Part shown: positions 5,009-53,964 of the stretch, piece after piece
Numbering within the stretch: the first letter of the stretch is position 1
How the letters are laid out: each line of letters starts with the position of its first letter
Assembly: GCA_021844945.1 (NCBI GenBank)
Contig: JAKBSJ010000002.1
Span: 102,965-166,964 of the forward strand
Source of the DNA: Thermoplasmata archaeon
Lineage (GTDB): Archaea; Thermoplasmatota; Thermoplasmata; Lutacidiplasmatales; UBA184
Reading direction: 5' to 3'
DNA length: 64,000 nt
Position numbers and translations under genes: made by a program
Notes under the pieces: model-generated
Told to the model about the DNA's origin: nothing
Seen by the model: only the letters and a program-made list of their open reading frames with translations
Database searches by the model: none

Positions 5009-5025
5009 GGTGGGGGGAGGGGAGG

Positions 5026-5036: not shown

Positions 5037-5047
5037 ACCGATGGGGG

Positions 5048-6433: not shown

Positions 6434-6440
6434 GACGATG

Positions 6441-6450: not shown

Positions 6451-6473
6451 GGCACCCGGCTCCAACGCGGCCC

Positions 6474-7457: not shown

Positions 7458-7460
7458 TCC

Positions 7461-8273: not shown

Positions 8274-9128
8274 ATGGGGGCTCTGCCGACCGCGCAACCG
8301 GCGAGGGTCCCGTACCGCTCGAAGTTCTGGCGGACGCTCTGGACGAACGCGATCGTCGCGCCGAAAACGACCCTGGGGTTCATGCGCATCGACTTCATCC
8401 TCGGGGAGATCTTCATCATCCCCCTCACGCAGATGGTCTTTTTCGTCTTCGTCGTCGCGTTCTCCTACGCGGGCTCCCCGTCGAGCGTGATCGCCTCCGA
8501 GATTGCCTTCGTCGCGATCGGGAACGCCGTCGCGACCGTCGCGTACTCGAGCATCTTCTCGGTTTGCCAGACCACGGACAGCGAGAAGCAGCTCGGCACG
8601 ATGGAGCACCTGCTCGCCTCTCCCGCCAACCGCACCGCGCTCTACTTCGGCCGGGGCTTCCTCCCGATCCTGATCAGCGTCGCATCCGTGGCGATGGGCC
8701 TCGCCTACGCCGTCCTCTTCTTCGGCGTCACGATCTCGGGGGCCTCGGTGCCGTTCGTCGCCGTGTCCGTGGTCCTGACCGCCTTCTCGATGGTCGGGTT
8801 CGGCCTCTTGCTGGGAGGGGTCGCCCTCTACCTGCGGACGTCGATCATCTTGGGGAACATCTTCCTGTTCATCGGGCTCTTGCTCTCGGGGGTGAACTTC
8901 CCGCTCAGCTCCCTACCGTACCCCGTGCAGGTCGTGAGCTACGGGCTTCCCCTCACGTGGGGAGTCGCGGCGATCCGTTCGGCGATCGACGGGGCGAGCC
9001 TCGCCGGCATGGAACTCCTCTGGTTGGGTCTCGCGCTGAGCGGATTGGCCGCCTACGGCCTATCGATCGCGCTCTGGGGTACGTTCGAGCACCGGGCGAA
9101 GTCGACCGGCAGCATCGCGCGCTTCTGA
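8274..9128 (+). CDS. ABC-2 type permease
   Basis: This second permease of the exporter has 284 residues and six hydrophobic segments with an ABC-2 layout, including the re-entrant region around IFSVCQTTDSEKQLGTMEHL typical of the family. Its ATG immediately follows the TAG of the previous gene, so translation is coupled. A convergent gene ends 22 nt downstream. Confidence 0.9.
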   Translation: MGALPTAQPARVPYRSKFWRTLWTNAIVAPKTTLGFMRIDFILGEIFIIPLTQMVFFVFVVAFSYAGSPSSVIASEIAFVAIGNAVATVAYSSIFSVCQTTDSEKQLGTMEHLLASPANRTALYFGRGFLPILISVASVAMGLAYAVLFFGVTISGASVPFVAVSVVLTAFSMVGFGLLLGGVALYLRTSIILGNIFLFIGLLLSGVNFPLSSLPYPVQVVSYGLPLTWGVAAIRSAIDGASLAGMELLWLGLALSGLAAYGLSIALWGTFEHRAKSTGSIARF

Positions 9129-9149
9129 GCGGGGACGGCGGTCGCCGCC

Positions 9150-9992
9150 CTACGTGACGTGGCGGTCGAAGTCGGTCGCCGGCAGCTCGAGCCCCATCGA
9201 TTTCACGAGGGGTGTGATCTCCTCGATGTAGCGGGTCCGGGCCTCTTCGTTCGTCCAGCGCTTCAATCCGTACTCGATCGCTCGGCGGCTCGTGGCCGAG
9301 TTCGAGTGGCCGAACATGTCGAGCGCGCGCGGGTACCACTTGTAGACCGCCTTCTGCGCCTCCTCCCGAGTGCCGGGATACCCGGGAGTCCCCTGGGCGA
9401 TCCGCTTGAGCACGTGGTACCCGAAGTTGAGGTGGAGCTGCTCCTCGCTCAGCATCAGCGGCATCGCGCGGGCGAGCGGCCCGTAGCTGCACTCCTGGAA
9501 CGCGCGGAGCTGGTAGACGCCGACTCGGTCCACGAAGCAGGTGAACGCGCCGACGTCGCTCCAGCGATCAAACTTCATGTTGAAGGCGTCGAGTTTGTGG
9601 TGACCCTCGGGTCTCGAAAGGAGATCGTCGATCAGCTTCTGCCCCTCCTCCCCGAAGTCGCGAAGGATGCGGCACGCCTGCAGTCCGTGGCGGGCCTCGT
9701 CGGCCACGATGCGAGCCTCGACCCACCGGTCCTCGAGCGTCGGAGCTTTGTCGAGCCACGGGCGGTGCTGCTGGATGGAGGCGAACTCGGTGTCGGCCTG
9801 TACCACCATGAGCTTGACGATGAGCTCGCGCATATCGGGTGGGACCTCGGTCGGGGTCTCGTACTTGCGCACCCCGGCCGACTGGCCCCAGAGGATCTCT
9901 CGGACCGGCTCGACGGTGCCCCCCTGCCGGATGGTGGTGGGCATGCTCGGTGCCGGATTCCCGTCCGGCACCGAGATCGGAGGGGTCCCCAC
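9150..9992 (-). CDS. PaaA/PaaC-like ferritin-fold di-iron protein
   Basis: This protein is related to the catalytic subunit of ring-1,2-phenylacetyl-CoA epoxidase. It shows two di-iron half-sites on a four-helix bundle: a Glu in QADTEFAS with DEARHG, and SEEQLHLNFG. At 280 residues it is near PaaA length (about 310). The reductase PaaE and the small subunits PaaB and PaaD are not nearby. The enoyl-CoA hydratase gene ends 25 nt upstream on the same strand, which suggests a CoA-thioester substrate. The start is GTG 9992; an ATG at 9944 is possible. Confidence 0.85.
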   Translation of the reverse strand: MGTPPISVPDGNPAPSMPTTIRQGGTVEPVREILWGQSAGVRKYETPTEVPPDMRELIVKLMVVQADTEFASIQQHRPWLDKAPTLEDRWVEARIVADEARHGLQACRILRDFGEEGQKLIDDLLSRPEGHHKLDAFNMKFDRWSDVGAFTCFVDRVGVYQLRAFQECSYGPLARAMPLMLSEEQLHLNFGYHVLKRIAQGTPGYPGTREEAQKAVYKWYPRALDMFGHSNSATSRRAIEYGLKRWTNEEARTRYIEEITPLVKSMGLELPATDFDRHVT

Positions 9993-10016
9993 GGTCGTCC
10001 TCCCGGGAATAGGCGC

Positions 10017-10799
10017 TCAGCGGCCCTTAAAGGTCGCCGGGCGCTTCTCAACGAAGGCGGCGATCCCTTCCTTCGCGTCCTCGGTGATGAACAGGCGGTT
10101 TTGCAGCTCCCGTTCCAAGGCGAGCCCGGCGGTGAGCGGCATCTCGATTCCCTCGACGACGGACCGCTTGATGAGGCTGATCGCGCGGCTCGGACCGTGG
10201 GCGAGCTTGGTCGCGAACGCGTGGACCTCCTTCGCAAAGGTCTCCTTCGGAAAGACGTAGTTCACGAGCCCAATCCCCAGAGCCTCATCGGGGGTCAAGA
10301 GGCGACCGGTGACCATGAGGTCGAGGGCGCGCGAGGTGCCGACCAACCGGGGAAGCCGCTGGGTCCCACCGGTACCGGGAAGGACGCCCAGGGTCACCTC
10401 GGGAAGGCCGATCTTCCCGGAGTCCTTCGCCATAATCCGCAGGTCGCAGGCGAGCGCGATCTCAAGCCCGCCACCCACGGTGTGGCCCGGCAGCGCCGCG
10501 ATCACGATCTTGGGCGTCTGGCCGAACTTGTTGAGCGTCTCCTGGCAGTGGAGGCAGAACATCGCCTTGTAGTCGGGCTGGGAGCGCTTCAGCATCTCGA
10601 TGTCCGCGCCCGCGCTGAAGAACCCGGGGAGCCCGCTCGTGACCACGAGCACCTTCGCGGCCTCATCGAACCGCAGCTCTTCGATCGCCACGTCGAGCTC
10701 GCCCATCATCTCGAGATCGTAGGTGTTGGCCTTGGGCTTCGAGATCTCGATATAGCCGACTCCGTCGTCGATCCGGGTTCGAATGTACCTGCCCTGCAT
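10017..10799 (-). CDS. Enoyl-CoA hydratase/isomerase family protein
   Basis: This 260-residue crotonase-fold enzyme has the oxyanion-hole segments FFSAGADIEML and GHTVGGGLEIALACDLRI, and GLPEVTLGVLPGTGGTQRLPR, which carries the usual catalytic Glu region (LPEV). It likely hydrates or isomerises an enoyl-CoA. It is upstream of, and probably co-transcribed with, the PaaA-like protein. Together they resemble a fragment of the phenylacetyl-CoA or benzoyl-CoA aerobic routes, though the other genes are missing here. Confidence 0.93.
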   Translation of the reverse strand: MQGRYIRTRIDDGVGYIEISKPKANTYDLEMMGELDVAIEELRFDEAAKVLVVTSGLPGFFSAGADIEMLKRSQPDYKAMFCLHCQETLNKFGQTPKIVIAALPGHTVGGGLEIALACDLRIMAKDSGKIGLPEVTLGVLPGTGGTQRLPRLVGTSRALDLMVTGRLLTPDEALGIGLVNYVFPKETFAKEVHAFATKLAHGPSRAISLIKRSVVEGIEMPLTAGLALERELQNRLFITEDAKEGIAAFVEKRPATFKGR

Positions 10800-18174: not shown

Positions 18175-19128
18175 GTGACCGAGCAGGCATGCCCCATGCG
18201 GGGCCGTAATACTGTCGGAGCGGTGCGGCATCGGCGTCGGAACTCTCGGTCCCGCCGCGGCGTCGCATCGATCATCGGGGCGCTTCTGGCCCTTCTCATC
18301 TTCCTGGTCGCCTTCGGTCTCGTGCTCACCGAGGCCGTTCCCGTGTGGATGGCTCAGGACGAAGGGGCACTCTCCCGCGGCGTAACGGGCGCGCTCACGG
18401 ACCTTCAGGCCACGCTCACCGTTCAAGCCTCGACCGGAGCTCCGCGCACGGCGTTCACGCCACTTCCGCTCGCATCCGGCTCGGTGCCGGTCCTCGCGGT
18501 TCCCACGGTGGGGTCCGCCGAGTTTCTTTCGGGCACCCCGACCGGGTTCCTCAACATCAGTTGGACGAACGCGACGACGGGGATGCCACAGTTCGACAAT
18601 GTGTCGCTCGGCGCCCTCGAGGTCCAGCTCCCGAACCGGTACACCGCCCCGCAGTCGCTTACGATGGAGGACGGAGCGGTTCTCACCTCTCAAGGGACCG
18701 GCCCCACGATGATGGCCTACCCCCCCGCGTTCTCGATCCTACCGGGTCCGCATGGACCTTCGGTCACGCTCACCGCCGTTTCGATGGTGGGGGTCTCGGA
18801 AAGCGTCAGCGGACCCGGCACCCAAGAGATTGTGGATACGCTGGTAAGCTCCGCCACCTTCCGCGCTACCGCGAACGCTTCGATCGGACCAGCAGGCCCG
18901 TTCACCTTCGTGATCGGCAATGAGTACTCGTGCGCATGGGGCGGCTATCTCGCTGCGACGGCCGCCGGCGCGGGGCTCTCTCCATCCGAGTACACGCTGA
19001 CCGGGCCCACGAGCTGTACCGGATCGCAACCGTCGTTCGCCATCGTCTCGTTCTCGATCCAGGCCATCGCGTCGATGAACCTCATCGTCAGCGACGTCTC
19101 AGTCTCATTCGCGGCCGGCGCGGGGTGA
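18175..19128 (+). CDS. Type IV pilin-like secreted protein
   Basis: The N-terminus has a basic segment (RHRRRNSRSRRG) directly followed by the hydrophobic helix VASIIGALLALLIFLVAFG, the class III signal layout of archaeal type IV pilins, with likely prepilin-peptidase cleavage after RRG. The remaining 260 residues are Thr/Ser-rich beta-type sequence suited to an exposed head, and two Cys (CAWGG, SCTGS) are present. It is the first gene of a pilus operon, 10 nt before the ATPase. GTG 18175 is used; ATG 18196 is possible. Confidence 0.75.
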   Translation: MTEQACPMRGRNTVGAVRHRRRNSRSRRGVASIIGALLALLIFLVAFGLVLTEAVPVWMAQDEGALSRGVTGALTDLQATLTVQASTGAPRTAFTPLPLASGSVPVLAVPTVGSAEFLSGTPTGFLNISWTNATTGMPQFDNVSLGALEVQLPNRYTAPQSLTMEDGAVLTSQGTGPTMMAYPPAFSILPGPHGPSVTLTAVSMVGVSESVSGPGTQEIVDTLVSSATFRATANASIGPAGPFTFVIGNEYSCAWGGYLAATAAGAGLSPSEYTLTGPTSCTGSQPSFAIVSFSIQAIASMNLIVSDVSVSFAAGAG

Positions 19129-19138
19129 GTGAGCTCTC

Positions 19139-20683
19139 ATGGAAAGCGCGCTGGATCCGACCCGGGCGTCCGCCCGCTCGCCGGTGGCGATCGTCGATAC
19201 CCCGGATCGATCCACCTACCCGTACCGCCGCGAGGTGACGCCTCCTTTCGCGCACGTCGAGGTCACCCTCGATCCGGGTTCAGCCTCTCTGCGCTACGAG
19301 GTGCACGAACCCGTGCTCACGGAGGAAGAACGGGAGGCGAGCGACGCGCTCGACCGCGCGCTGCCCCGGATCCTGCCTCCTCTCCCGGGACCTGCCACTC
19401 CCGAGCGGCGCACGGACCACTTGAGGCATACGGTGAACGAGTTCCTGGCCGCGCGCTATCCCGGGCTATCGTCGGCGTCCCGAGAGCGGATCCTGTACTT
19501 CCGACGACGCGACGCGATCGGCTACGGGCCTATTGACGCGATCCTCCGCGACCCCGAGATCGAGGACGTGTCGTGCGACGGGGTCGGGTCCGCGGTCTTC
19601 GTCTATCACGCGCGTTTCGAGTCGATACGCACGAACGTCGTCTTCCCGGATGAGGGCGCCCTCAACGGTTACGTGGTCCGACTCGCGCAGCGATGCGCTC
19701 GATCCGTGAGCGTCGCGCGACCGCTTCTGGACGCCTCGACCCCCGAAGGTCACCGCGTCCAGCTCACCTACGGTCGTTCGGTCAGCGGCCGCGGCTCGAC
19801 CTTCACCCTGCGGCGCTTCCGCGACCGGCCCTTCACCCCGATCGACCTCGTCCGCAACGGGAGCTGGAGCGCCGAGATGGTCGCGTACCTGTGGTTGGCG
19901 GCCGAGCACCGCGACTCGATGATCGTGGTGGGAGGGCCGGGTGCCGGGAAGACCAGCACGCTCAACGCGATCGCCCTGTTCGTAGCGGCATCGGCGAAGA
20001 TCGTCTCGATCGAGGATACGCGGGAGATCAACCTCCCTCACGCCAACTGGGTACCGTTGACGACGCGCACCGGCGCCTCCATGGCCGGGATCGGGACGGA
20101 CCGAGCCCAAGACATCGATCTCTTCGACCTCCTCACCGCCGCGCTTCGGCAGCGTCCGAGCCACATCGTCGTCGGAGAGGTACGGGGCCGCGAGGCCTAC
20201 ACAATGTTCCAGGCGATGAATACCGGCCACGCCACGTATGCGACGATGCACGCGGATTCCCTCCGGGCTCTGGTCCAGCGCTTGGAGAGCCCGCCGATCC
20301 AAGTCCCTCGCGCACTGCTGTCCGCGCTTCGGGAGGTGTTGATCGAGACGTTGACCCGCACCCCATCCGGACCCGCCCGTCGCATCCGGGAGCTGGTCGA
20401 GGTGCGGGGAGTCGATGCCGACACCGGCGAGGTCGTGAGCACGCCGGTATTCACGTGGGACGAAGCGGCCGACACTTTCCACTACCTCGGGCACTCCTAC
20501 CTTTTCGAGCGGATCGCGACGTCGACCGGTCGCTCGGCCGGTGCGGTCGACGAGGAGTTCCGGCGCCGCGCCGCGGCGATCCAGGCTCTCGCCGACTCCG
20601 GGCGCCCGATCGGTCCGACCGCCATGTGGCAGTGGATCCGCGAGAACGGCCGCTGGGCGAGCGGACCTGCGGAGGTCCTGTGA
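19139..20683 (+). CDS. Type II/IV secretion (pilus) ATPase 1, TadA/FlaI-like
   Basis: This hexameric motor is expected to power pilus assembly. At 514 residues it has an N-terminal domain, then DPEIEDVSCDGVG, Walker A GGPGAGKTS near residue 265, the Asp box IEDTREINLPHANWVPL, Walker B HIVVGEVRGREAY, and the His box GHATYATMHADS. The stop overlaps the GTG of the platform protein gene (GTGA). It is clearly paralogous to the second ATPase of the same operon (22551-24071). Confidence 0.92.
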   Translation: MESALDPTRASARSPVAIVDTPDRSTYPYRREVTPPFAHVEVTLDPGSASLRYEVHEPVLTEEEREASDALDRALPRILPPLPGPATPERRTDHLRHTVNEFLAARYPGLSSASRERILYFRRRDAIGYGPIDAILRDPEIEDVSCDGVGSAVFVYHARFESIRTNVVFPDEGALNGYVVRLAQRCARSVSVARPLLDASTPEGHRVQLTYGRSVSGRGSTFTLRRFRDRPFTPIDLVRNGSWSAEMVAYLWLAAEHRDSMIVVGGPGAGKTSTLNAIALFVAASAKIVSIEDTREINLPHANWVPLTTRTGASMAGIGTDRAQDIDLFDLLTAALRQRPSHIVVGEVRGREAYTMFQAMNTGHATYATMHADSLRALVQRLESPPIQVPRALLSALREVLIETLTRTPSGPARRIRELVEVRGVDADTGEVVSTPVFTWDEAADTFHYLGHSYLFERIATSTGRSAGAVDEEFRRRAAAIQALADSGRPIGPTAMWQWIRENGRWASGPAEVL

Positions 20684-21591
20684 CGGACGGATCGGTGCCG
20701 ACCCTCGCTCCCGAAGGGGACCGGCCGAGGCTCACTCGATTCGATCGCTGGGCCTGGAAGGCGTTCGGAAGGCGGGTCGGGGCGACGGGCGCATCGGACG
20801 ATGCGCTGGCGCGGGCGCACTGGCTTCGAACGCCGGACGAGTTCCGGGCCTACACGCTCCTTCTGACCGTGGTGATCGCGCTCGCCGCGGGCGTCGCATC
20901 CGCGGTGGTCGCGACCCTGGACCTCCGATCGATGGGGATGCTCGTCGTGGCGAGCGTCGCCCTGGCCGCCGCCGGGGTCGCCGGCGGTCTCGGCTACGTG
21001 GTCGTCTCCGACCTCCCGAACTCCCGAGCGTTGGCTCGGCGGCAGGGGATCGACCGACACCTGCCGCGAGCCCTCGGGTTCGTCGCGGCCATGAGCTGCG
21101 CCGACGTTCCCCTCGACGAGATCTTCCGCGAACTCTCCCATCAGCCGATCTACGGCGAGGTCGCGAGCGAAGCCGCGTGGATCGTCCGAGACACCGACCT
21201 CTTGGGCCGGGATGTCCTTTCGGCCGTTCGCGACGCGACCCGCCGCAGCCCGTCGCCGGGGTGGGAGGAGTTCCTCCAGGGGCTCGTGACGACCTCCGAG
21301 AGCGGAGGCGATCTGCGCTCGTACTTCCTCGCGCAGGCCGATCGCTACGAACGCGACGGTACGGTGCGCGTCCAGGGTCAGCTCGAGCGGCTTGGGACCT
21401 ACGCCGAGGCCTACGTGACGGTCGCGGTCGCGTTCCCGCTCTTCCTGCTCGTGATCCTAACGGTCTTCACGCTCATCGAAGGAGCGGCGAACCACCTGTT
21501 GACCTTCGTATGGCTTACCGCGCTCGGCATCGTACCGGCGGCCGAGCTCGCCTTCGGGCTTCTGTTCCGACGCCTCGGAGAGGACACATGA
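20680..21591 (+). CDS. Pilus platform membrane protein 1 (TadB/FlaJ-like)
   Basis: This 303-residue protein has hydrophobic pairs near residues 60-105 and 245-295, around a cytoplasmic T2SS-F type helical domain (CADVPLDEIFRELSHQPIYGEV and GWEEFLQGLVTTSESGGDLR). It anchors the ATPase and pilin in the membrane. GTG 20680 is chosen because it overlaps the preceding stop as GTGA. Its own stop overlaps the next ATG (ATGA). Confidence 0.88.
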   Translation: MTDGSVPTLAPEGDRPRLTRFDRWAWKAFGRRVGATGASDDALARAHWLRTPDEFRAYTLLLTVVIALAAGVASAVVATLDLRSMGMLVVASVALAAAGVAGGLGYVVVSDLPNSRALARRQGIDRHLPRALGFVAAMSCADVPLDEIFRELSHQPIYGEVASEAAWIVRDTDLLGRDVLSAVRDATRRSPSPGWEEFLQGLVTTSESGGDLRSYFLAQADRYERDGTVRVQGQLERLGTYAEAYVTVAVAFPLFLLVILTVFTLIEGAANHLLTFVWLTALGIVPAAELAFGLLFRRLGEDT

Positions 21592-22547
21592 GTGGCTCCG
21601 GGGATCGTCCCGCGTCGCCCCGCCTCGAGCGGCCCCCCACCCCCTTCTCCGAGGAACGGGCCCAACGCCGCGACCGCCGGACGCTCCGGGGCTCGATCGT
21701 CGCGGCCCTGGCCCTGTGGGTCGTTGCCGGATTGAACGCCGCGGGCACGGTCACCCTCGAGATCCGTCCCGGCGAAGGCGCCGGATGGAACCCCGCGCTC
21801 GACTTCGTGGTCCTCGGTCTCATCGCCCTGCTCCTGCCGTACGGGATCGTTCGCGCCCGCCACATCCGTGCGGTGGAAGGGATCGAGCGGCGCCTCCCCG
21901 ACTTCCTGGGGGACGTCGCGGAGTCGGGCTCCCAGGGGCTCACGCTCACCGATGCGATACGGACGGCCGCGCGGGGGCAGTACGGACCCCTCACCCCAGA
22001 GATCCGGCGCATGGCCACCGAGCTCAACTGGGGCGTCCCCGCCGAAGAGGTGCTCGCCGGCTTGGAGCAGCGCCTATCAACCCCGCTCGTGAAGGAGGCG
22101 TTCGCTGTCGTGGGCCGCGCCCAGGCGACCGGCGGCCGCTACCCCGAGGTCCTTCGCCGGGTCGCGCACGACCTCCGCTCGACCCAACTCATGCGGGAGC
22201 GCCGACGCGACATGATGCGCACCTACGTCATCGTGGTCGCTCTCGCCTACGCGGTCTTCCTCCTGACGGTCTACGTCCTCGCCGCGGTCTACCTCCCCGA
22301 ACTCTTGGCCGCCGGCGGCTCGTCGGGTTTCGGGTCGACGGGTTACCTCGTCGGGACGGCGGTCGTCGCGAGCCTGTTCCTGGCTCTGTTCGTGGCGGTG
22401 ATCGCCCACGGCCTAGGTGACGGGCTCGTTGCCGGCTTCCTGTACCGCGGTCGGTTCGCGGAGGGGTTGACGCTCTCCGCCGGACTTCTGATGGTCGGTT
22501 GGGTGGTCCTGCGCTTCGTGGTCGCTCCGATCGCCGGAGGAGCGTAG
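21588..22547 (+). CDS. Pilus platform membrane protein 2 (TadC/FlaJ-like)
   Basis: This second T2SS-F domain protein has 319 residues. Helix pairs are near 38-60/68-88 and 215-240/255-310. The cytoplasmic domain contains LPDFLGDVAESGSQGLTLTDAI and GGRYPEVLRRVAHDLRST, typical of TadC/FlaJ. The ATG overlaps the previous stop (ATGA), and the second ATPase follows after 3 nt. Two platform proteins in tandem recall the Tad system's TadB-TadC pair. Confidence 0.88.
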   Translation: MSGSGDRPASPRLERPPTPFSEERAQRRDRRTLRGSIVAALALWVVAGLNAAGTVTLEIRPGEGAGWNPALDFVVLGLIALLLPYGIVRARHIRAVEGIERRLPDFLGDVAESGSQGLTLTDAIRTAARGQYGPLTPEIRRMATELNWGVPAEEVLAGLEQRLSTPLVKEAFAVVGRAQATGGRYPEVLRRVAHDLRSTQLMRERRRDMMRTYVIVVALAYAVFLLTVYVLAAVYLPELLAAGGSSGFGSTGYLVGTAVVASLFLALFVAVIAHGLGDGLVAGFLYRGRFAEGLTLSAGLLMVGWVVLRFVVAPIAGGA

Positions 22548-22550
22548 ACC

Positions 22551-24071
22551 GTGACCGCGCTCCCGGCTCTCGATTCCCGGATCCGCGGGACCGCCGAGGT
22601 TCGTCCCGGAGAAGATTCGGGTGAACTCTCCTACCGGATCGTCGAGCCCGCGCTCTCTACGGAAGAACGCCGAGGCCTCGGCGAGATCCGTCGGCGGCTC
22701 TTCGCGACGGAGCTGATCCGACCGGAGGGTCCGACGGAGGCGGAGGCGCGACTCACCGAGCGGATCGAGGTCCTCGCGCGAGCGGATCCCCGTCTCCAGG
22801 ACCCGGACCGCCGGGCCCGGCTGACGTACTACCTGGTCCGGGACCTGGTGGGCTTCGGACCAATCGACGTACCGATGCGCGACCCCGACATCGAGGACAT
22901 CTCGTGCGACGGGGTGGGAGTCCCTCTGTTCGTTCACCACCGCCGCTGGGGCTCGCTCGCCACCAACCTCTCCTTTCCCGACCCGACCGAGCTCGATCGC
23001 TTCGTAGGGAGCCTCGCGCAGCGCTCGGGCCGCCATCTATCGGTGGCCGAGCCTCTCGTGGAGGGGACGCTTCCCGGGGGTGCCCGGCTCGAGGCCAGCC
23101 TCGGACCGCAGATCACGACGCGCGGGTCTACGTTCACCATTCGCCGGTTCCGGGAACGAGCGTTCACGCCCGCCGATCTCGTCCGCTCCGGCACGATCGA
23201 CGCCGGAACGATGGCCTACCTGTGGCTCGCGGTCGAGTCGGGCCAATCGTTCGTCGTCCTCGGAGGAACGGCCAGCGGCAAGACGACCACGCTGAACGCG
23301 CTCCTCCACTTCGTCCCGGCCGAGCGCAAGATCGTTTCGATCGAGGACACACGGGAGCTCCACCTTCCCCACGAGAACTGGGTCCCGCTCGTGACCCGCG
23401 GCCCCGCGCCCCGGGCCGGAGAGGCCGAGAGTCCGGAGGTCGGGGCCATCGACATGTACGACCTGCTCAGCGCCGCGCTGCGCCAGCGCCCACAGTACCT
23501 GGTCGTGGGCGAGGTTCGAGGGCGAGAAGCCTACACCGTGTTCCAGGCGATGGCGACCGGTCGGACCTGCTGCGCGACCTTCCATGCCGAGAGCCTCCGG
23601 GCGATGGTCCAGAGAATGGAGAACCCGCCGATCTCGCTCCCTCGGGCGCTGCTGGCGGCCCTGCCCATCGTCCTCGTCCAAGCCCAGGTGCGCGTGGACG
23701 ATATGCCGGCCCGCCGCATTCGCTCGGTCATCGAGATCGAAGGGCTGGACCCTGAAACCGAGGAGGTCGTCGCGAGCACGGTCTACCGTTGGGATGCGGA
23801 CGGCGACCGGTTCGAGACCAGCGGCCAGTCCCGAGTGCTCGAGCAACTCGCCCGCGAGCGAGGGGTGGGGACCGACGCGATCCAGCGAGAGCTCGATCGT
23901 CGGCGGTCGCTCCTCGAGCGATGGGCCGGCGCGACCGACCGGGACCCGCTGGCGCCCGATCCCTTCCTGCGCGACGCCGCGGCGTACGCCCGGGATCCGG
24001 AGGGCGCGCTCTCCGCGGCCCTCCGCAGGGAAGAGGTGCCGCCCCCGGCCGGCCGTGGCGGTACGCCGTGA
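22551..24071 (+). CDS. Type II/IV secretion (pilus) ATPase 2
   Basis: This 506-residue paralogue of the first ATPase has IEDISCDGVG, Walker A GGTASGKTT near residue 238, the Asp box IEDTRELHLPHENWVPL, YLVVGEVRGREAY and the His box GRTCCATFHAES. All catalytic elements are intact, so it should be an active motor. It starts at GTG 22551, and its stop overlaps the GTG of the DNA methyltransferase. Whether it extends, retracts or serves another pilus cannot be read from the sequence. Confidence 0.92.
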   Translation: MTALPALDSRIRGTAEVRPGEDSGELSYRIVEPALSTEERRGLGEIRRRLFATELIRPEGPTEAEARLTERIEVLARADPRLQDPDRRARLTYYLVRDLVGFGPIDVPMRDPDIEDISCDGVGVPLFVHHRRWGSLATNLSFPDPTELDRFVGSLAQRSGRHLSVAEPLVEGTLPGGARLEASLGPQITTRGSTFTIRRFRERAFTPADLVRSGTIDAGTMAYLWLAVESGQSFVVLGGTASGKTTTLNALLHFVPAERKIVSIEDTRELHLPHENWVPLVTRGPAPRAGEAESPEVGAIDMYDLLSAALRQRPQYLVVGEVRGREAYTVFQAMATGRTCCATFHAESLRAMVQRMENPPISLPRALLAALPIVLVQAQVRVDDMPARRIRSVIEIEGLDPETEEVVASTVYRWDADGDRFETSGQSRVLEQLARERGVGTDAIQRELDRRRSLLERWAGATDRDPLAPDPFLRDAAAYARDPEGALSAALRREEVPPPAGRGGTP

Positions 24072-25027
24072 CCGGGCTCGCTCGTTCTCCTCCCTTCGCG
24101 CGCTTTCGCCTCCCGGGAGCCCACGGAGCGATCGAGCTCTACCGAGAGGATGGGCTCGCTGGCCTTGGTCGTCGCGCGGGACGGAGATCGCTGGACGTCA
24201 TCGTCACATCTCCCCCGTACAACCTGGGCCAGCCGTACACGGCCTACCGGGACCGCAAACCCCGGGGAGAGTACCTCGGCTGGATCCGCGAACTCGCCGG
24301 CGCCGTCGACGGGTCGCTCTCTCCCCGGGGTTCGTTCTTCCTGAACGTCGGCAGCCCTCCCCGAGACCCGTGGCTCGCCTGGGATGTGGCCCGAGAGGTC
24401 GGGAAGGCCCTCGTCCTTCAGAACGTGCTGCATTGGGTGAAGTCGATCGCCATCGAACGACGGTTCGTCGGCCATGGGGCCGGGCTCGATCGGGATGTCG
24501 CCGTGGGACACTACCGCCCGCTGGGCTCCTCACGCTACGTCCACGGCGCCCACGAGTACATCTTTCACTTCACGCGGGACGGGAACGTCCCTATCGACCG
24601 CCTCGCCCTGGGGGTCGCCTATCAGGATCCGTCGAACGAGCGTCGTTGGGGGTCCGGGCGCGGCCGATTAAGGTGCCGGGGGAACACCTGGTTCCTCCCG
24701 TATGCCACGATCCAGCGACGGAGCCGGGACCGCCCGCACCCGGCCTCGTTCCCGCCCGAGCTCGCGGAATGGTGCGTTCGGCTTCACGGCCGCGCGAGGG
24801 TGCGGCGGTGGGCCGATCCGTTCGTCGGGATCGGTTCGAGCGCGGTAGCGGCGGTCCGGATCGGACGAGCGTTCCTAGGATTCGATATCGACGGGACGTA
24901 TCTCGCCGTAGCGCGCGACCGGGTACGGGCCGCGCTCGAACGCGGAGGGGAAGGGTTCAGTTCTTCCCGCGACCCGGGTCGTTCTCTTCGGGCGGCGGGC
25001 TCCACTCGCGTATCGGACGCTTCTTGA
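24068..25027 (+). CDS. DNA methyltransferase, N4-cytosine/N6-adenine class
   Basis: This 319-residue protein has the catalytic motif IV TSPPYNLG near the N-terminus and the AdoMet motif I WADPFVGIGSSAVAA near the C-terminus, the beta-class order. The target segment in between is about 170 residues. It modifies an exocyclic amino group of A or C in a short DNA site. No restriction endonuclease is adjacent. GTG 24068 overlaps the stop of the pilus ATPase, so it is translationally coupled to the pilus operon. Its 3' end overlaps a convergent gene by 71 bp. Confidence 0.88.
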   Translation: MTGLARSPPFARFRLPGAHGAIELYREDGLAGLGRRAGRRSLDVIVTSPPYNLGQPYTAYRDRKPRGEYLGWIRELAGAVDGSLSPRGSFFLNVGSPPRDPWLAWDVAREVGKALVLQNVLHWVKSIAIERRFVGHGAGLDRDVAVGHYRPLGSSRYVHGAHEYIFHFTRDGNVPIDRLALGVAYQDPSNERRWGSGRGRLRCRGNTWFLPYATIQRRSRDRPHPASFPPELAEWCVRLHGRARVRRWADPFVGIGSSAVAAVRIGRAFLGFDIDGTYLAVARDRVRAALERGGEGFSSSRDPGRSLRAAGSTRVSDAS

Positions 25028-47493: not shown

Positions 47494-48153
47494 GTGCAAC
47501 CGACGGGCTGGGCCGGGGTCTACCGCGAAGGCCGCGACCTCTACACCGCAAACTCCCGCCCCGGGGAGCGGGTCTACGGGGAGACGTTGCGCACGGCCGA
47601 CGGACGGGAGTACCGTCAGTGGGATCCCTTCCGTTCGAAGCTTGCGGCGCTCCTCGTTCGGGGAGCTCGCGAACCGGGCCCGTGGGCCGGGGCTGGATCG
47701 GTTCTCTATCTCGGGGGAGCGCATGGAACCACGGTGAGCCATCTCTCGGATCTCCTCCCCGAGGCGCGGCTGTTCGTCGTCGAGAAGAGCCCCACATCGT
47801 TCGCACCGCTCCTCGCGCTCGCGCGACGGCGCTCGAACATCTATCCGATCCTGGACGACGCGCAACTGCCCGAGCGGTATTCGGCGGAGGTCGGCGCGGT
47901 CGATCTTGTGTACCAGGATGTCGCGCAGCGGAACCAAGCGGCGATCTTTGCCGAGAACGTTCGCGTGGCCCTGGCCCCGGGCGGACGGGCGGTGCTGATG
48001 CTCAAGGTCCGCTCGGTTTCACAGCGGCGCTCCGCGGAAGCCATCGTCCGCGAGGCGCGCCGGACGCTCGAGGGGGCCTCGCTCTCGATCTCCGAGGAGA
48101 TCGCGCTCTCCCCCTTCGCGCGCGAACACGTCGCGCTCGTCGTGCGCCGGTAG
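47494..48153 (+). CDS. flpA: Fibrillarin (box C/D RNP 2'-O-methyltransferase)
   Basis: With Nop5, L7Ae and box C/D guide RNAs, this methyltransferase modifies rRNA and tRNA riboses. Motifs: EYRQWDPFRSKLAALLVRG, the AdoMet loop LGGAHGTTVSHLSDLLPE, VVEKSP, DLVYQDVAQRNQA and LMLKVRSVSQRRSAE. At 219 residues it has archaeal length. GTG 47494 precedes the conserved start. The usual neighbour nop5 is not present on either side. Confidence 0.95.
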   Translation: MQPTGWAGVYREGRDLYTANSRPGERVYGETLRTADGREYRQWDPFRSKLAALLVRGAREPGPWAGAGSVLYLGGAHGTTVSHLSDLLPEARLFVVEKSPTSFAPLLALARRRSNIYPILDDAQLPERYSAEVGAVDLVYQDVAQRNQAAIFAENVRVALAPGGRAVLMLKVRSVSQRRSAEAIVREARRTLEGASLSISEEIALSPFAREHVALVVRR

Positions 48154-48232
48154 AGATCCGGCGTCTTCCCTCACCTTCCACGGGCTCGCGTCGGCCCAAG
48201 TACCTCCCCCCGCTCGTTCGGCGGGGACGGGT

Positions 48233-48715
48233 ATGCAAGGGACATCGATCGGCATTGGGAACTGGTGGAATGCGACGAACCGGCCGGGGGGTAGGGTCGG
48301 AGCGGCGGCAGGGGATCGACGCGCGCTCTGCATCATCCTGGCCGCGACCATCGGGGTGGCGATCGCCCTGGTCGTGGCGATCGCCCCGTTCGCGCCGACG
48401 ATCGCGGCCCACATGCCGCCGGCGCGCGAGCTCCACGCGCTCGTGCCGTCGAGGGCGGCTCAGGGGACCTCGACGGCCGTGACGAACTTCACGAGCTCGA
48501 TCTCGAGGCTCGTCGACCTGGTGGCCCTCGCCGGGGGCGGAGTCCTCGCCCTCGTATGGACCCGGGTCGCGCTCAGCTGGTTCTCCGGCGATATCTCGAA
48601 GAAGGTCCAAGCCAAGGATCGCGCTCGGGACGCGCTGATCGGGACGCTGATCTTCACCGCGGCGATCACGGGTCTCGTTTGGGGACTCGCCCAGTGGGTC
48701 ATTTCCGGCGTGTGA
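48233..48715 (+). CDS. VirB2/CedA1-like small membrane protein (candidate pilin)
   Basis: This 160-residue protein has a hydrophobic segment at about 32-57 (possible signal/anchor), then two helices at about 92-115 and 135-157. They are joined by a short basic cytoplasmic loop, RVALSWFSGDISKKVQAKDR. Two helices around a basic loop of the form SG-KK-AK-R are the layout of VirB2/TrbC pilins and of CedA1/TedC in archaeal DNA importers. It is the first gene of an operon with VirB6-like and VirB4-like proteins. The assignment is from topology and context. Confidence 0.7.
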   Translation: MQGTSIGIGNWWNATNRPGGRVGAAAGDRRALCIILAATIGVAIALVVAIAPFAPTIAAHMPPARELHALVPSRAAQGTSTAVTNFTSSISRLVDLVALAGGGVLALVWTRVALSWFSGDISKKVQAKDRARDALIGTLIFTAAITGLVWGLAQWVISGV

Positions 48716-48722
48716 GACGGCC

Positions 48723-49832
48723 GTGAGCGATCCGTGGGGCGAGCTGGTCCAGGCCCTGCTTGCCGGGGCGTTCGGGTTGTTCGCTCTCGCGATGAATACG
48801 GCGATCACCCCGACGTACAACAATCTCTTTGTCCCGGCGATGTCCCCCGGGCAACTCTTCCCATCGCTCTCGGATCCGGGCGGAGGAGCCACGTTCCTCG
48901 CGGAAGCGGCAAAGTTCAGCTCCTACCTCCTCGTCAACATCGTCGATCCTGCCGTAGCGCTCGTCGCCGTCGGATTGGGCCTGTTGTACCTCTCGAAGGC
49001 CCTCTACCAACGAAGTGGACCTTGGGCGGAAGCGCTGATCGTCCGGTTCATCGTCGCGGTGGTCGTCGCGAACTTCACAATCCTGTTCGCTACCGGGATC
49101 CTCGACCTCGGGGCGATCACCTACCCGACGATCGCCGCTTGGGACGGCGGCGCGTGGCAGAACTGGACCAACCTGGCGGGGTGGGGCCAGGGAACGTTCA
49201 TCTGGCAGAACGGGGCGCTCGCGTTCGTCCTCACGTTCGTCGAGTTCTCGCTCGTTCTCTTGTTGGCCATCCTGATCGGGCTGCGCGATGCCGGGCTCGC
49301 GGTCCTCCTCGTCGTGCTCCCGGTGTTCACCCTGCTATGGCCCATCCATCCGTTCTCCGCTCTTGCGCGTCGCGGTTGGATGCTCTTCATCGAGTTGGCC
49401 CTCCTCCCGTGCGTCTTGGTCGTCCCGCTCGAACTCGCGGTCCACTCGCCGAATCCGATCCTCCTCGTCGCGTTCCTCACGCTGGCGCTGTCGACCCCCT
49501 ACCTGATCTCGATCAGCGGAGCGCAGCTCTCCCAACTCGGATTCCCGGCGGCCGGAGCGGCGCTTTCGGGCGCCGTGGAACGAGGCTTGCTCGGGGCATC
49601 CCGTACGACCTCGGGCCCGATCAGCGGAACCTCCGTCGGGGGCACCGGCATCGCCGGCGCACTCACCCCGAGCGTGCGGGCGGCCAGCTCGGTAGCCCTT
49701 CCCGCCGCCGCTCCGGCCGCGATCGCCGGCGCCCTGGGCCAGGGAGCGAGCCACCTAGTGCAGCACGTTCGTACCCCCTCGGGCGAGTTCAAGCCCTCGT
49801 GGAAGCCGGTGCCGCCGGCGGGTGAGGAATGA
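48723..49832 (+). CDS. VirB6/CedA-like polytopic membrane protein
   Basis: This 369-residue protein has about seven membrane segments between residues 8 and 270, including LLLAILIGLRDAGLAVLLVV with the conserved aromatic/basic region RRGWMLFIELALLP after it. A Gly/Ala/Ser-rich cytoplasmic tail follows (about 280-369). VirB6, TrbL and CedA have this polytopic core plus low-complexity tail. GTG 48723 follows the VirB2-like stop by 7 nt, and its own stop lies next to the following start. Confidence 0.7.
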   Translation: MSDPWGELVQALLAGAFGLFALAMNTAITPTYNNLFVPAMSPGQLFPSLSDPGGGATFLAEAAKFSSYLLVNIVDPAVALVAVGLGLLYLSKALYQRSGPWAEALIVRFIVAVVVANFTILFATGILDLGAITYPTIAAWDGGAWQNWTNLAGWGQGTFIWQNGALAFVLTFVEFSLVLLLAILIGLRDAGLAVLLVVLPVFTLLWPIHPFSALARRGWMLFIELALLPCVLVVPLELAVHSPNPILLVAFLTLALSTPYLISISGAQLSQLGFPAAGAALSGAVERGLLGASRTTSGPISGTSVGGTGIAGALTPSVRAASSVALPAAAPAAIAGALGQGASHLVQHVRTPSGEFKPSWKPVPPAGEE

Positions 49833-49833
49833 G

Positions 49834-50610
49834 ATGGGGGCGGGAGCGACGTTCCCGGACGTCGCGCTGCCGGTCGCGATCGGCCGGCGGATGCGACTGG
49901 GCCCATTTCCTTCCGCTCGCGACGCTCTCCGATTTCTCGCGTATGCAACGGCCGGCGCGGTCGTCATTCCGTTCTTCGGAGCGGTCGCATGGCTCCCCTT
50001 CCTCGGTGCCGGGTTCCTCCTCACGGTGGTTCCGATCGACGGAACATCGCTCGACCTCGAGCTCGCGCGGCGGGTCTCGCACTGGCATCGCTCCACGATT
50101 CCCGTCGAGAGCCCTATGACGCCGATCCGGCGATCGAGAGGTGCCGTGGTGGAAGTGGGGACGGGAGCGGAGGTCGCGGTCCTCCGTTGCCGTGGAAAGC
50201 CGATCGCCTTCCTTCCTCCGGAGCAGCTACGGCAGCGCTTCGACGCCTTCCGGGAGCTCCTGCGCTCCACCGACGGCGGCATCGTGCTCGCGACGGCCGG
50301 CGTCCCGGTCAATCCCACGCCGTTCCGGCCGGCGATCCCCCACGGAGAAGACGGAGAAGCGCGGGCGGCCCGCGCCTACTCGGAGATGGTCTGCCTTCTC
50401 TGCCGCCGGCGCTCCCAGCGCCGCATCTACGTGCTGCAATGGGACGCGACGGTCCTCGCCGGCGGGACATCGCGGCTCGAGCATCGGCTCGGCGAACTCG
50501 CGGCGCGTCTCGCGCATCTCGGGGTCGAGCCGGAGCGACTGGCCGGTAGGGAGCTGACGGGGGCCTTGCATCGGTTCGGGTTCGCCAACGCGCCGCGAGG
50601 CTCGCGGTGA
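49834..50610 (+). CDS. Two-helix membrane protein with soluble domain (VirB3/PrgI-like)
   Basis: This 258-residue protein has two close helices at about 30-68 after a basic N-terminus (GRRMRLGPFPSARDALRFL). A soluble alpha/beta domain of about 180 residues follows, containing FLPPEQLRQRFDAFRELL and YVLQWDATVL. Small proteins with two helices precede VirB4 in many type IV secretion loci (VirB3, PrgI). ATG 49834 is chosen because GAGG lies 6 nt upstream. It ends in a GTGA overlap with the next gene. Confidence 0.6.
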   Translation: MGAGATFPDVALPVAIGRRMRLGPFPSARDALRFLAYATAGAVVIPFFGAVAWLPFLGAGFLLTVVPIDGTSLDLELARRVSHWHRSTIPVESPMTPIRRSRGAVVEVGTGAEVAVLRCRGKPIAFLPPEQLRQRFDAFRELLRSTDGGIVLATAGVPVNPTPFRPAIPHGEDGEARAARAYSEMVCLLCRRRSQRRIYVLQWDATVLAGGTSRLEHRLGELAARLAHLGVEPERLAGRELTGALHRFGFANAPRGSR

Positions 50611-50969
50611 TCGCGGCTCCCTGGATCGCCCGTCTGGAAGCCGATCCGGTACGCATCTCGGTCGGCATGGCGATCGTTTGCGGCGCGGCGGCGCTGATCG
50701 AGCCGTCTTTCGCCGGTCTGACCTTCGCGCTGTTCGCGCTCGCCGTTGCGAGTTTCCTCCTCCGGTATCACCGAGCCGATCCCGCCCTGCGACGGTTCTC
50801 CGCGATTGCGGCCGCGGTCTATGCCGGCCTCGCGGTCGGAGTCGCGGGCTACTTCGGCCTCCCGGCGCCGTGGGAGATGGCGCGAGCCCTCTCGCTGGCC
50901 CTGTCGGCGACTCCCCTCGCGTTCTATGCGCGCGGAACCCGCGTTCGCACGCCGGAGGCGTCACCGTGA
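50607..50969 (+). CDS. Small polytopic membrane protein of the T4SS-like operon
   Basis: This 120-residue protein is largely hydrophobic, with about four short segments (18-34, 36-53, 67-85 and 90-108) and basic loops (RYHRADPALRRF). GTG 50607 overlaps the preceding stop, and its stop overlaps the VirB4 start (GTGA both times). It could be the true VirB3 counterpart directly before VirB4. No catalytic motif is seen. Confidence 0.65.
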   Translation: MIAAPWIARLEADPVRISVGMAIVCGAAALIEPSFAGLTFALFALAVASFLLRYHRADPALRRFSAIAAAVYAGLAVGVAGYFGLPAPWEMARALSLALSATPLAFYARGTRVRTPEASP

Positions 50970-52653
50970 CGAATCCTTCGATCGTTGAGGACGCCGAGTG
51001 GCGAATCCGCGGAACCCGTGCGGTCGCGCCCCTCCTCCTTCGTCAGCTCCCGAACGAGGTACCGTTCGGATTCGTGGGGCGGCTCGCACCGACCTCGACT
51101 CCGATCGAGCTCTACCTGGAAGCGTTCCCCATCTCACCGGGACGCGCCCTCGAGATCTTGCACGGGGCTCGCGCGGTCGCCCGCGTCGAGCTGGTTCGGG
51201 GCGGCGCCGACGACGCCCGCGCGGCCGAGCTCGAGGCGGAGCAGGCCGGAGCCGAGGAGCTCGGTCGGCAGGTGGCGCGTCGCGAGCAGGAGCTCTGGCG
51301 TGTCGGTATTCGCTGGACCGCCTCAGGGAGTTCCGCGCCCCGGGCCCTAGAAGCACGCGTCGCGCTGGAGTCGCGGCTGGCCGCGCTCGGATTTCGCGCG
51401 CATGTGCCACGCCATGAGGTGGGGGCGGCGCTCGCTCCCCCGGACCTTACGGGTCCGGGCGCGCGCCCGCTCCGCTTCTTCCACACGTTGCCGACCGACG
51501 GGCTCGCCGCGTTCTATCCGTTCGTGGACGAGACCGTCCTCGAACCGGGGGGATTCTGATCGGCCTTCTGCTCGAGGACGCCGCGCCGGTTTTCATCGAT
51601 CGCTGGGCGCATGCCAGCCACTCGTGGGGTATCTTCGGCACGACCGGCAGCGGGAAGTCGTTCGCCGCGGCGTTGACCATCCTCCGGTCCCGATGGATGC
51701 GACCGGACCTCTCGGTGACGATTCTCGACCCTCTCGGAGAGTTCGGGCACCTGGCCGAGACGTTGGGCGGGAACGTCATCCGACTGGGACCTCAAGGCGG
51801 CGATCGCCTCAACCCGCTCGATCCCGCGACGGCGGGCGGGGATCGTCGAGAAAAGGCGGGCCGCGTGGCCGCCATGCTCCGCGCGCTCTTCCCGTCCCTG
51901 CGGGACGAGGAAGGAGCGACGCTTGACGCCGCGGTCAGCACCCTGTACGCCGACGGTCCGAAGGTCCCGGTCTTCTCCGATCTGCTGAACGCGATCGCCG
52001 ATCGAACCCGAGGAACGGACCGGCTCGGGACATTGCTCGAGATCTTCCGTTCGGGTTCTCTCCGGGCGGTCAACGGTCCCACGACCGTTGACCCGGAGGC
52101 CACGGTCGTCGCCGTGGACTTCCGGGGAGTCCCCGAGGAACAGCTGGCGTTCCATCTTGCCTACGTCCTGGACTGGGCGTACGGCCGCCTGCAGCACGTG
52201 AAGGGCCCGAAGCTCCTCCTCGTCGATGAGGCGCATCTGCTCGCACGGCATCCCGCCACGGCCGAGTTCCTGGATCGCGTCGTCCGTCACGTGCGGCACT
52301 TCGATGCCGGTGTGCTGCTCCTCAGCCAGCATCCCAACGACTTCCTGGAGCATCTGACCGGCCGCTCGCTGCTCGGAAACCTGAGCGCGACGCTCCTCCT
52401 CCGGATCCCGCGGCCCGACCCCGCCCTTTCCGCTTTCTTCTCGCTCACGCCGAGCGAGGTCGACTGGCTGCCGCGCACGCATCTGCCGAAGGAGGCGGGG
52501 TTCTCCGAGGGTTTGCTCCGGGTCGGAGAGTTTCACTTGCCGATCGCGGTGGTCGCGTCGACGCCCGAGTACGAGTTCCTAGCGGGGCAGCTCGGCTCGG
52601 CCACGACGTCGTCGAAGGAGACCCACGATGCACTTCGAGCATCAGATTTATGA
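50966..52653 (+). CDS. VirB4/CedB-like ATPase, two frames joined by a -1 shift
   Basis: Frame 1 (GTG 50966 to TGA 51557-51559; 197 residues) looks like the VirB4 N-terminal domain. The ATPase domain is in the -1 frame: ILIGLLLEDAAPVF, Walker A FGTTGSGKSFAA, KLLLVDEAHLLARH (Walker B) and VLLLSQHPNDFL. The frame change falls at G GGG GGA (51547-51553), just before the stop. No ATG, GTG or TTG exists in the second frame before Walker A; the first, TTG 51673, would delete it. So one chain of about 562 residues is needed, through frameshifting or a missing base. This is the motor of the T4SS/Ced-like machine. Confidence 0.8.
51547..51553 (+). promoter_or_regulatory. Candidate -1 frameshift slippery heptamer
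   Basis: In the upstream frame the codons read CCG GGG GGA TTC TGA, so G GGG GGA fits the X XXY YYZ slippery rule with a stop codon one codon later. A -1 slip yields ...PGG-ILIGLLL..., which joins the VirB4 domains. A sequencing error in the six-G run would look the same. Confidence 0.5.
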
Positions 52654-53171
52654 GTGGCTCATCGGCTCGAACGCCGATGAGCGCGGCGGAAGAAGCGACC
52701 GCCGAGCACCCGCGTCGCAAGCGGACGCCGTGGAGCCTGAAGTCGATCGTGGTCGACGTGACCGGCCGGGAGATGTCCGAATTCCAGGACCGGCCGAGCC
52801 CTGCTGGCGGGGGATCGCCGGCCCATGCCCCACGGCTTCACGAACCTGTCGCGGAGATCGGGGATCTCGATCCGGTCGAGCGTATCACCCCGCCGCTTTC
52901 CCGTGCCAACGGCCGACGCTACCACGGCCACGCGGACGAGGACCATGCGGCGACCATGGAGCGGCACCGTCCCGCGAACGGGGGTTCCGGCTCGCCCGCG
53001 AACCGCCCGGAGCGGATTTACCTCCACTACCTGCTCCTCCACCTCGACAAGCTGAGCCTTCCGGCGTTGTGGTACTTGCGGCGCCAGGTCAACGAGGAGA
53101 TCGCCTACCGCTCGTCGTCCTCGGCGCCGACGGCCAGTCCTCCTCCGGCGAGCCCCCCGACACCTCCATGA
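52650..53171 (+). CDS. Soluble protein at end of the T4SS-like operon
   Basis: This 173-residue protein starts at an ATGA overlap with the VirB4 stop, so it is coupled to the operon. The middle is Pro/Gly/His-rich and probably disordered. A short conserved-looking helix pair near the end, IYLHYLLLHLDKLSLPALWY followed by LRRQVNEEIAYR, could be a docking domain. It has no membrane segment. The last 83 bp overlap a convergent methyltransferase gene. Confidence 0.65.
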   Translation: MSGSSARTPMSAAEEATAEHPRRKRTPWSLKSIVVDVTGREMSEFQDRPSPAGGGSPAHAPRLHEPVAEIGDLDPVERITPPLSRANGRRYHGHADEDHAATMERHRPANGGSGSPANRPERIYLHYLLLHLDKLSLPALWYLRRQVNEEIAYRSSSSAPTASPPPASPPTPP

Positions 53172-53964
53172 GGCCACGACGAGCGGCTTCGGCCTGCAAG
53201 CGGGCGTAGGTCGCGTCATCGCGTTCGACCCCGATTGCGCTCCGACCGAGGGCGAGGGCCGTCCACACGGTCGTCCCGGTGCCCGCAAAGGGATCGAGCA
53301 CCGTATCGCCCTTCACGGAGAACATCCGCACGAGTCGTCGGGGGATCTCGGCAGGGAACGCACCGGTTCGACGTCCGTCGCGGACCTGCGCCGCCCCTCG
53401 GATGTCGCTCCAGATCTGGCTGAACCAATGGTCCCGCTCCGGCCTCGAGAAGCGGCTCGCGTAGCGCGCCGCGTCGTGCGGGGGGAACCGGCGAAGTCCG
53501 CCCCGTCGGAACAGGAGCACGAACTCGCAGTCGATCGTGACGTAGGCGTTGGGAGGGAGGAATCCACTGCCGAGGAAGGCGTTCGGCTTGTTCGTCGGTT
53601 TCTTCCATAAGACGTACGGGAGCGGGACGAAGCCGCATCGGGTCGCTCGAGAGAGGACCTCGGAATGGTTCGGCCAGAGCCGGAACCCCCCGTCGATCGA
53701 GCGAAGGGCGTCCCCGACCACGACCGCGAGCACCGCTCCCGGGGCGAGGACGCGAAACGCCTCCCGCCAGGCCCCTTCCAAGAGGTCGTGCATCGCGTCG
53801 TAGTCGGCCGCTCCTTGCGCGAGGAAGATCGCATCCCACTGCGGGATCATGGGATACGGCGGGCTCGTGACGATAAGCTGGACCGAACCGTCGGCGAGCG
53901 CCGAGAGCGCCCCCGCCGACCCGTGGATGAGGGATAGGCTCGGTGTGCGATCGTGCGAGTCCAC
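53089..53964 (-). CDS. DNA methyltransferase, N4-cytosine/N6-adenine class
   Basis: This 291-residue beta-class enzyme has motif IV VTSPPYPMIPQWDAIF near residue 33, a middle target region with YVLWKKPTNKPNAFLGSGF, and motif I VLDPFAGTGTTVWTALALG near residue 220, followed by GVERD. No restriction endonuclease is nearby, so it is an orphan methyltransferase. It is convergent with the T4SS-like operon and overlaps its last gene by 83 bp. Confidence 0.92.
   Translation of the reverse strand: MDSHDRTPSLSLIHGSAGALSALADGSVQLIVTSPPYPMIPQWDAIFLAQGAADYDAMHDLLEGAWREAFRVLAPGAVLAVVVGDALRSIDGGFRLWPNHSEVLSRATRCGFVPLPYVLWKKPTNKPNAFLGSGFLPPNAYVTIDCEFVLLFRRGGLRRFPPHDAARYASRFSRPERDHWFSQIWSDIRGAAQVRDGRRTGAFPAEIPRRLVRMFSVKGDTVLDPFAGTGTTVWTALALGRSAIGVERDDATYARLQAEAARRGLMEVSGGSPEEDWPSAPRTTSGRRSPR

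Follow-up and report, generated by a model that had tools for sequence, protein, structure and literature searches.

A split-VirB4 type IV secretion-like operon on Thermoplasmata chromosomes, a candidate domesticated conjugation apparatus

What is a compact operon of conjugation-like genes doing on the chromosome of a Thermoplasmata archaeon, and what would its products move? The operon lies at 48233-53171 (+) of a stretch of 64,000 nucleotides (nt) (here called the window; GenBank assembly GCA_021844945.1, contig JAKBSJ010000002.1, positions 102,965 to 166,964 of the forward strand) in a genome of 1.26 Mb in 5 contigs, and all coordinates are window positions unless prefixed with a locus (L) or genome (G) label. 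The answer that we favor, with moderate rather than high confidence, is that it encodes a pared-down type IV secretion system (T4SS) that Thermoplasmata carry on the chromosome and inherit vertically, a domesticated conjugation apparatus most likely moving DNA between cells.

Six genes run in the same direction with gaps of 1-8 nt or 4-nt overlaps, as described in the initial annotation of this DNA, and the spacing recurs in nine relatives (O1 to O2, 7-19 nt; O2 to O3, mostly 1 nt; O3 to O4 and O4 to O5, mostly -4 nt). On the + strand they are O1 (48233..48715; 160 amino acids, aa), O2 (48723..49832; 369 aa), O3 (49834..50610, 258 aa, or 262 aa from an alternative start at 49822), O4 (50607..50969; 120 aa), O5, the VirB4 gene, in two parts (50966..51559 and 51553..52653), and O6 (52650..53171; 173 aa).

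The second part of O5 carries the ATPase domain with the Walker A motif GTTGSGKS and matched the VirB4 CD1110 family (NF045971; E-value 7.8e-35) and PF01935 (1.1e-10); against PDB sequences O5 matched the VirB4 structure 4ag5 (1.1e-13, or 2e-34 when a profile was used). For a full-length relative of O5 the E-values were 3e-41 for VirB4 CD1110, 6e-9 for CedD and 5e-5 for HerA; the CedD model gave 35 of 600 bits, far under its cut-off, and the HerA model NF040819 gave 22 of 970 bits, which bears out the earlier assignment to the VirB4 rather than the HerA type. The first part of O5 corresponds to the second portion of the VirB4 N-domain, and the first portion of that domain is encoded two genes upstream. 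The predicted model of O3 consists of a transmembrane hairpin and a soluble alpha/beta domain, and the PDB structures closest to it are TrwK/VirB4 chains (E-value 2.3e-4, probability 1.0); 4 of 17 O3 family members weakly matched the SCO6880 family (best 5.6e-5) and one matched PrgI (0.013), all under the curated cut-offs, so that the hairpin is best described as VirB3/PrgI/SCO6880-like. At a locus from a DHVE2-type genome (L043), the VirB4 model NF045975 is matched by O3 over its positions 126-273 (residues 102-244 of the protein) and by O5 over its positions 275-829 (residues 3-504). Related genera (L161, L162) have T4SSs in which a single polypeptide of 859 or 877 aa holds both pieces; the O3 profile covers residues 5-301 and the O5 profile residues 330-847 of the 859-aa protein of L161. 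Another genome (G118) has a single VirB4 of 639 aa with a hydrophobic, hairpin-like N-terminus. These consecutive matches to one VirB4 profile, and the fusion in related T4SSs, show that O3 and O5 are two pieces of one split VirB3-VirB4, with O4 between them. Where the initial annotation had seen two small membrane proteins, O4 is indeed a polytopic membrane protein, whereas the 262-aa O3 combines a hairpin with a soluble piece of the VirB4 N-domain.

O1 has the layout of a VirB2-like pilin, with a hydrophobic N-terminal segment, a helix, a basic loop (KKVQAKDRARDA) and a second helix, and its C-terminal half is the conserved part. The family to which it belongs includes 5 of 16 members that matched the T4SS_pilin family PF18895 (best E-value 1.7e-8), which supports the VirB2-like identity first proposed for the 160-residue protein; the window's own O1, searched alone, stayed below threshold for PF18895. 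With the O1 family profile no chain was matched among PDB sequences, though pilus structures of TedC and CedA1 have been reported (PMC9905601). One operon at L043:13826-18685 contains about five VirB2-like genes in tandem, of which four encode large N-terminal ectodomains, an arrangement that resembles a choice of alternative, decorated pilins. For O2, earlier called VirB6-like, the class-wide search agrees: 3 of 21 homologues matched PF04610 (TrbL/VirB6; best 3.7e-5). The O2 family of the genus searched alone had no family match, its profile found nothing useful among PDB sequences, and a PHROGs search of both O1 and O2 was equally unproductive; the predicted O2 model was poor (predicted local distance difference test score, 58), and the structure that ranked first for it in the PDB, TrwI/VirB6, had an E-value of 1.3, which is not significant. 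The two remaining genes matched no known family (for O6, in Pfam and NCBIfam searches). The position of O4 is conserved in the genus and in DHVE2-type loci; O6 was seen in the genus only, has a basic N-terminal motif, and ends in a helix, PERxYLHYLLLHxDxL, that is invariant in 14 orthologues.

Of 400 class genomes sampled, 163 gave a match to the O5 profile (E-value at most 1e-10), among them 57 of 70 genomes of the genus, 24 of 25 from the family's other genera, and representatives of five more families (f11, f15, f19, f27 and f31), with weaker matches spanning only part of the profile in f19 and f31. The system is thus not limited to a single odd genome but is spread over six families of the class. 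Representative loci across the class keep the order O1-O2-(O3)-(O4)-O5, with O1 and O2 detected by profile in most, though not all, of them, and homologues of the operon genes stand in the same order across the genus; the operon is therefore not a chance assembly. The relatives identified by sequence are Thermoplasmata metagenome-assembled genomes, in line with the Thermoplasmatota host first proposed. The operon is also present in AcS5-116 (L056), a genome listed among the Lutacidiplasmatales (PMC9287336); neither the word secretion nor the word conjugation turned up in the text of that paper. Judged by this kinship, the host most likely belongs to the order Lutacidiplasmatales and to a group of archaea from acid soils.

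Within the genus the operon sits between RidA and fibrillarin genes on one side and, usually, a DNA methylase gene on the other. In the window the fibrillarin (Nop1) gene occupies 47494..48153 (+; PF01269, E-value 5.5e-59), and this gene, preceded by a RidA-like gene, was in the same place in the 11 genus loci that have that flank. Pairwise distances of O5 correlated with those of fibrillarin (r = 0.76), RidA (0.74) and DUF885 (0.78), compared with 0.71 between fibrillarin and RidA themselves. In an IQ-TREE phylogeny, which was built without CedB and TedB sequences, the VirB4 proteins of each family were monophyletic (support 99-100) and the chromosomal copies lay on one side of a branch (92/92, under the tool's own star threshold), separate from those of mobile-type systems. 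The operon is chromosomal, non-mobile and vertically inherited, which upholds the original view of a chromosomal locus. VirB4 was undetected in 13 of the 70 genus genomes; one of these contigs (G308) ends within the first gene of the operon, and in the five others examined and in G311, where the best fibrillarin is divergent and lies elsewhere, loss and missing sequence are indistinguishable. Six loci from genomes without VirB4 (L148-L152, L154) hold such a divergent fibrillarin (39-45% identity) away from its usual place, in four of them near a paralogue of the VirD4-like ATPase described below. The methylase (N4/N6 type; 53089..53964, -; PF01555, 1.9e-31), convergent with O6, adjoins the operon in 12 genus loci and a DHVE2-type locus; we rejected it as a core gene of the operon, because its distances do not track those of fibrillarin (r = 0.07) and it is replaced in some genomes. 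The VirD4-like ATPase stands in its place in L042, L157 and L158.

The absence of relaxase and VirD4 genes had been noted at the outset. At the locus this stands, and neither a relaxase nor an integrase was recognized beside the operon; in searches for PF03432, which did not extend to other relaxase families, none was found in 6 of 6 genus genomes and 13 of 14 genomes overall. For the genome as a whole it does not stand, since a VirD4/TrwB-like ATPase of 849 aa is encoded in trans on the same contig (G000:C4:19963-22503), 131 kb upstream of the operon; it scored 32 bits with PF10412, against a cut-off of 20.5, and is HerA-like too. The arrangement in trans is found in most genomes. In G010, G256 and G198 the gene adjoins the operon, as it probably does in G246, where the match is partial; in family f31 (L104, L119) it lies directly downstream of VirB4, and in mobile-type T4SSs its kin likewise follow VirB4. 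Both VirB4 and the VirD4-like ATPase are carried by f1, f11, f19, f27 and f31, an agreement inflated by the kinship of the genomes.

A promoter motif, CGTTCANCGTTCG, appears to tie these unlinked motors to the operon. In several species it lies in the gap between fibrillarin and the operon (48154..48232, +, in the window) at a fixed distance of -66 to -68 from the first start codon, and within two mismatches it occurred in 7 of 16 upstream regions, compared with 0.18 expected from mononucleotide shuffles. Exact sites numbered 68 across 78 genus genomes versus 2 for the reversed pattern; assigned by coordinates, about 10 precede the operon, 13 precede the VirD4-like ATPase, and about 4 more lie upstream of further ATPases of the VirD4-like kind. 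Among the sites in 50 regions, about 22 fall inside predicted genes, which points to a background that the reversed-pattern control understates. The motif had been spotted by eye in the operon promoters before it was tested, so that the count at the operon is not independent, while the VirD4-like sites largely are. Those sites lie about 0.5 kb before the small partner gene of the VirD4-like gene, not near a start codon, and a genome of another genus (G210) has an exact copy upstream of its VirD4-like gene. The window genome has no exact site; its best match, with three mismatches, is placed elsewhere in the upstream 220 bp. Exact copies in L214, L232, L236, L209 and L211 precede two OB-fold RPA/SSB-like genes, an Orc-looking ATPase and surface proteins, associations that were not confirmed in other genomes. 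An RPA-like gene was considered as a member of the regulon and rejected, with exact sites in L214 and L232 and none in L245 and L246, the only 2 of 8 orthologues that could be placed.

How these parts would work together, including pilus assembly, the DNA substrate, the direction of transfer and a purpose in repair or recombination, we infer as follows. O1 would be exported and polymerized into a thin pilus, and O2 would form the membrane channel. The VirB4 ring would be built from two polypeptides, with O3 supplying the first part of the N-domain and O5 the second part and the motor, and the hairpin of O3, perhaps with O4, would anchor the ring at the membrane. The VirD4-like ATPase encoded elsewhere would be the likely coupling motor, passing on the substrate. 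Two considerations make DNA the most likely substrate: Ced and Ted, the nearest archaeal chromosomal systems of this kind, move DNA (PMC9905601, PMC11868833), and such a role would fit a VirB4/VirD4 pair for which no effectors are recognized.

Several points weigh against this reading. The matches that make O2 VirB6-like are weak, and no direct sign of DNA as the substrate was seen. No HerA/NurA, Rad50 or ParA gene was recognized at the locus, unlike Ted; a link to DNA damage could not be established, since the motif that precedes RPA-like genes in two genomes was not found there in G002 and the window genome. In the window the ATPase gene is frameshifted and the promoter motif degenerate; if that sequence is correct, this copy of the operon may have no activity.

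The operons of most relatives start with a PKD/Ig-type surface protein of 500-1800 aa, the C-terminal end of which has a transmembrane segment and a small, cytoplasmic winged-helix-like domain; a stand-alone version of that domain matched DUF5817_CT (E-value 3.7e-4). A bolder proposal, which we regard as doubtful, would make the whole a class-wide chromosomal mating machine under one regulon, with the PKD surface protein as a contact sensor that binds CGTTCANCGTTCG and switches the machine on. The same surface proteins, with which most of the related operons begin, would also suit a T4SS for protein delivery or for contact and antagonism, which exports effectors or displays surface proteins instead of moving DNA. 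The big ectodomains borne by several VirB2-like proteins of the DHVE2-type locus point the same way, as does the view that relaxase-less T4SSs of Patescibacteria have other roles (PMC12102498). We nevertheless consider protein delivery unlikely, given that no effector or toxin-immunity pair was recognized in the loci, that a VirB4 plus VirD4-like pair is equally suited to a nucleic-acid pump, and that the nearest archaeal functional precedents are the DNA transporters named above.

Whether the window's own copy is functional is a separate matter, and its decay to a pseudogene would be compatible with a DNA-transfer role in the relatives. The initial annotation had taken the ATPase for a protein of about 562 residues; its VirB4 type stands, but the window has no single open reading frame for it. 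Codons 1-197 of O5 stop at a TGA (51557-51559) and the ATPase frame resumes at 51553, one base back, so that the frame slips by -1 at the G6 run (51547..51552, +). In 18 of 18 relatives aligned, a single open frame of about 550-570 aa passes through the G run, and the first part of O5 has 45-62% identity to the N-terminus of this frame. Programmed -1 frameshifting was considered, as the heptamer G GGG GGA would fit, and set aside; since the relatives read one frame, it is simplest to suppose that the assembly lacks one G or that a mutation arose recently. A decaying copy would account for this frameshift, for the degenerate promoter motif and for the missing surface-protein gene. We hold it to be improbable: the other five genes are intact, errors of assembly or sequencing typically include the loss of one G from such a homopolymer, and the surface gene, missing from L037 as well as from the window, is absent or reduced in L033, L037 and L038, all of which have an intact VirB4.

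Less probable still is that these genes belong to an integrated conjugative element (ICE), as its transfer module or what remains of it, rather than to a host system. Plasmid- or ICE-like relatives do occur in the same family (L161 and L162, with fused VirB3-VirB4 and a VirD4-like gene downstream), distant VirB4s reside on haloarchaeal megaplasmids, and in the DHVE2-type genome a true VirD4 and a gene resembling a relaxase lie 40 kb away from the operon. The chromosomal flanks conserved across the genus, the distances that track fibrillarin, a tree in which chromosomal and mobile-type VirB4s stand apart, and the lack of a recognized relaxase or integrase beside the operon all speak for a host system. 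The mobile-type T4SS is a second system of genera g24 and g28 (L161, L162, L160, L114), in which VirB3 and VirB4 are fused and, in L160-L162, the VirD4-like ATPase is adjacent. An Aciduliprofundum-type genome (L139, G051:C1:966000-985000) has at 780-10477 an ArdC-like gene (780-2111, judged by eye), a 172-aa HUH relaxase-like protein (MobL, 0.0022; PF03432, 0.0085) and a true VirD4/TrwB (PF10412, 2.5e-38).

A HerA-type repair helicase beside unrelated membrane proteins is very improbable, even though PF01935, the HerA central domain, is the top Pfam match of the ATPase domain alone, since the VirB4 profile is ahead by more than 30 orders of magnitude in E-value and the operon holds a VirB2 pilin and a piece of the VirB4 N-domain, without a nuclease gene.

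A domesticated transfer apparatus of this kind has its closest counterparts in Ced and Ted. The Ced system of Sulfolobales (CedA, CedA1, CedA2, CedB, CedD, CedE) likewise derives from a T4SS, is chromosomal, lacks a relaxase and has homologues of VirB2, VirB6 and VirB4, and it too divides the VirB4 N-domain, between CedB and CedD (PMC11868833). In Ced, however, CedB and CedD each have a motor domain, whereas here there is one motor, and the division runs between VirB3 with the first N-domain part and the second part with the ATPase. A VirB3-like hairpin is present here, and the ATPase is nearer to VirB4 CD1110 than to CedD, the Ced ATPase used in the comparison. The initial annotation had suggested a Ced-like system or a new secretion device; by its parts, a split VirB4-type ATPase and a VirB3-like gene, the system is not Ced. 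Ted of Thermoproteales (TedA, TedB, TedC) is also chromosomal and has a VirB2 pilin with an N-terminal hydrophobic segment, a VirB6 and a VirB4 (PMC9905601); it belongs to another phylum and differs from the tight six-gene operon found here, where no Rad50, HerA or ParA neighbors were recognized, and its TedA and TedB were compared by description only. The MPF_FATA class, the ICEs of Thaumarchaeota and the T4SSs of Patescibacteria share the VirB4 plus PrgI/VirB3 class, the PF18895 pilin and VirB6 (PMC6563490, PMC12102498), but here there is no recognizable mobile element, no relaxase was found, the VirD4-like gene is mostly unlinked, and VirB3-VirB4 is split with O4 interposed.

Closer to home, the available part of a 2016 account of Cuniculiplasma, of the same class, annotates a VirB4/VirD4/multipass cluster as T4SS components, with VirB4, multipass and membrane proteins clustered and a VirD4-family ATPase elsewhere (PMC5155288). 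This is probably the same system in another family; that part of the account mentions neither a pilin nor a split VirB4, and neither a survey of the class nor a regulon. Thermoplasmata systems are unnamed in the Ced and Ted papers (PMC9905601, PMC11868833) and in a 2025 review of T4SSs (PMC12857230). We found no prior report of a class-wide chromosomal system with a split motor and a regulon in the open-access literature, though earlier ones may exist. VirB3 has been said to be absent in archaea (PMC11868833), but VirB3, VirB4 and VirB6 homologues are known from thaumarchaeal ICEs (PMC6563490), and that claim is therefore too strong.

Descriptions of T4SS-derived DNA exchange encoded on chromosomes have come from Thermoproteota (Ced, Ted). 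In Thermoplasmata, a version present across the class and passed on vertically would be a concrete candidate mechanism of gene exchange, and its extension to culturable Thermoplasmatales and Aciduliprofundum-type archaea makes the question testable. The two-piece VirB4, with VirB3 fused to one half, offers a natural experiment on the assembly of the ATPase ring.

In Sulfolobales, Ups pili act together with Ced. The window also holds a type IV pilus-like cluster at 18196-25024 (+), with a pilin-like DUF7289 protein, two T2SSE ATPases and two T2SSF membrane proteins, followed by a DNA methylase.

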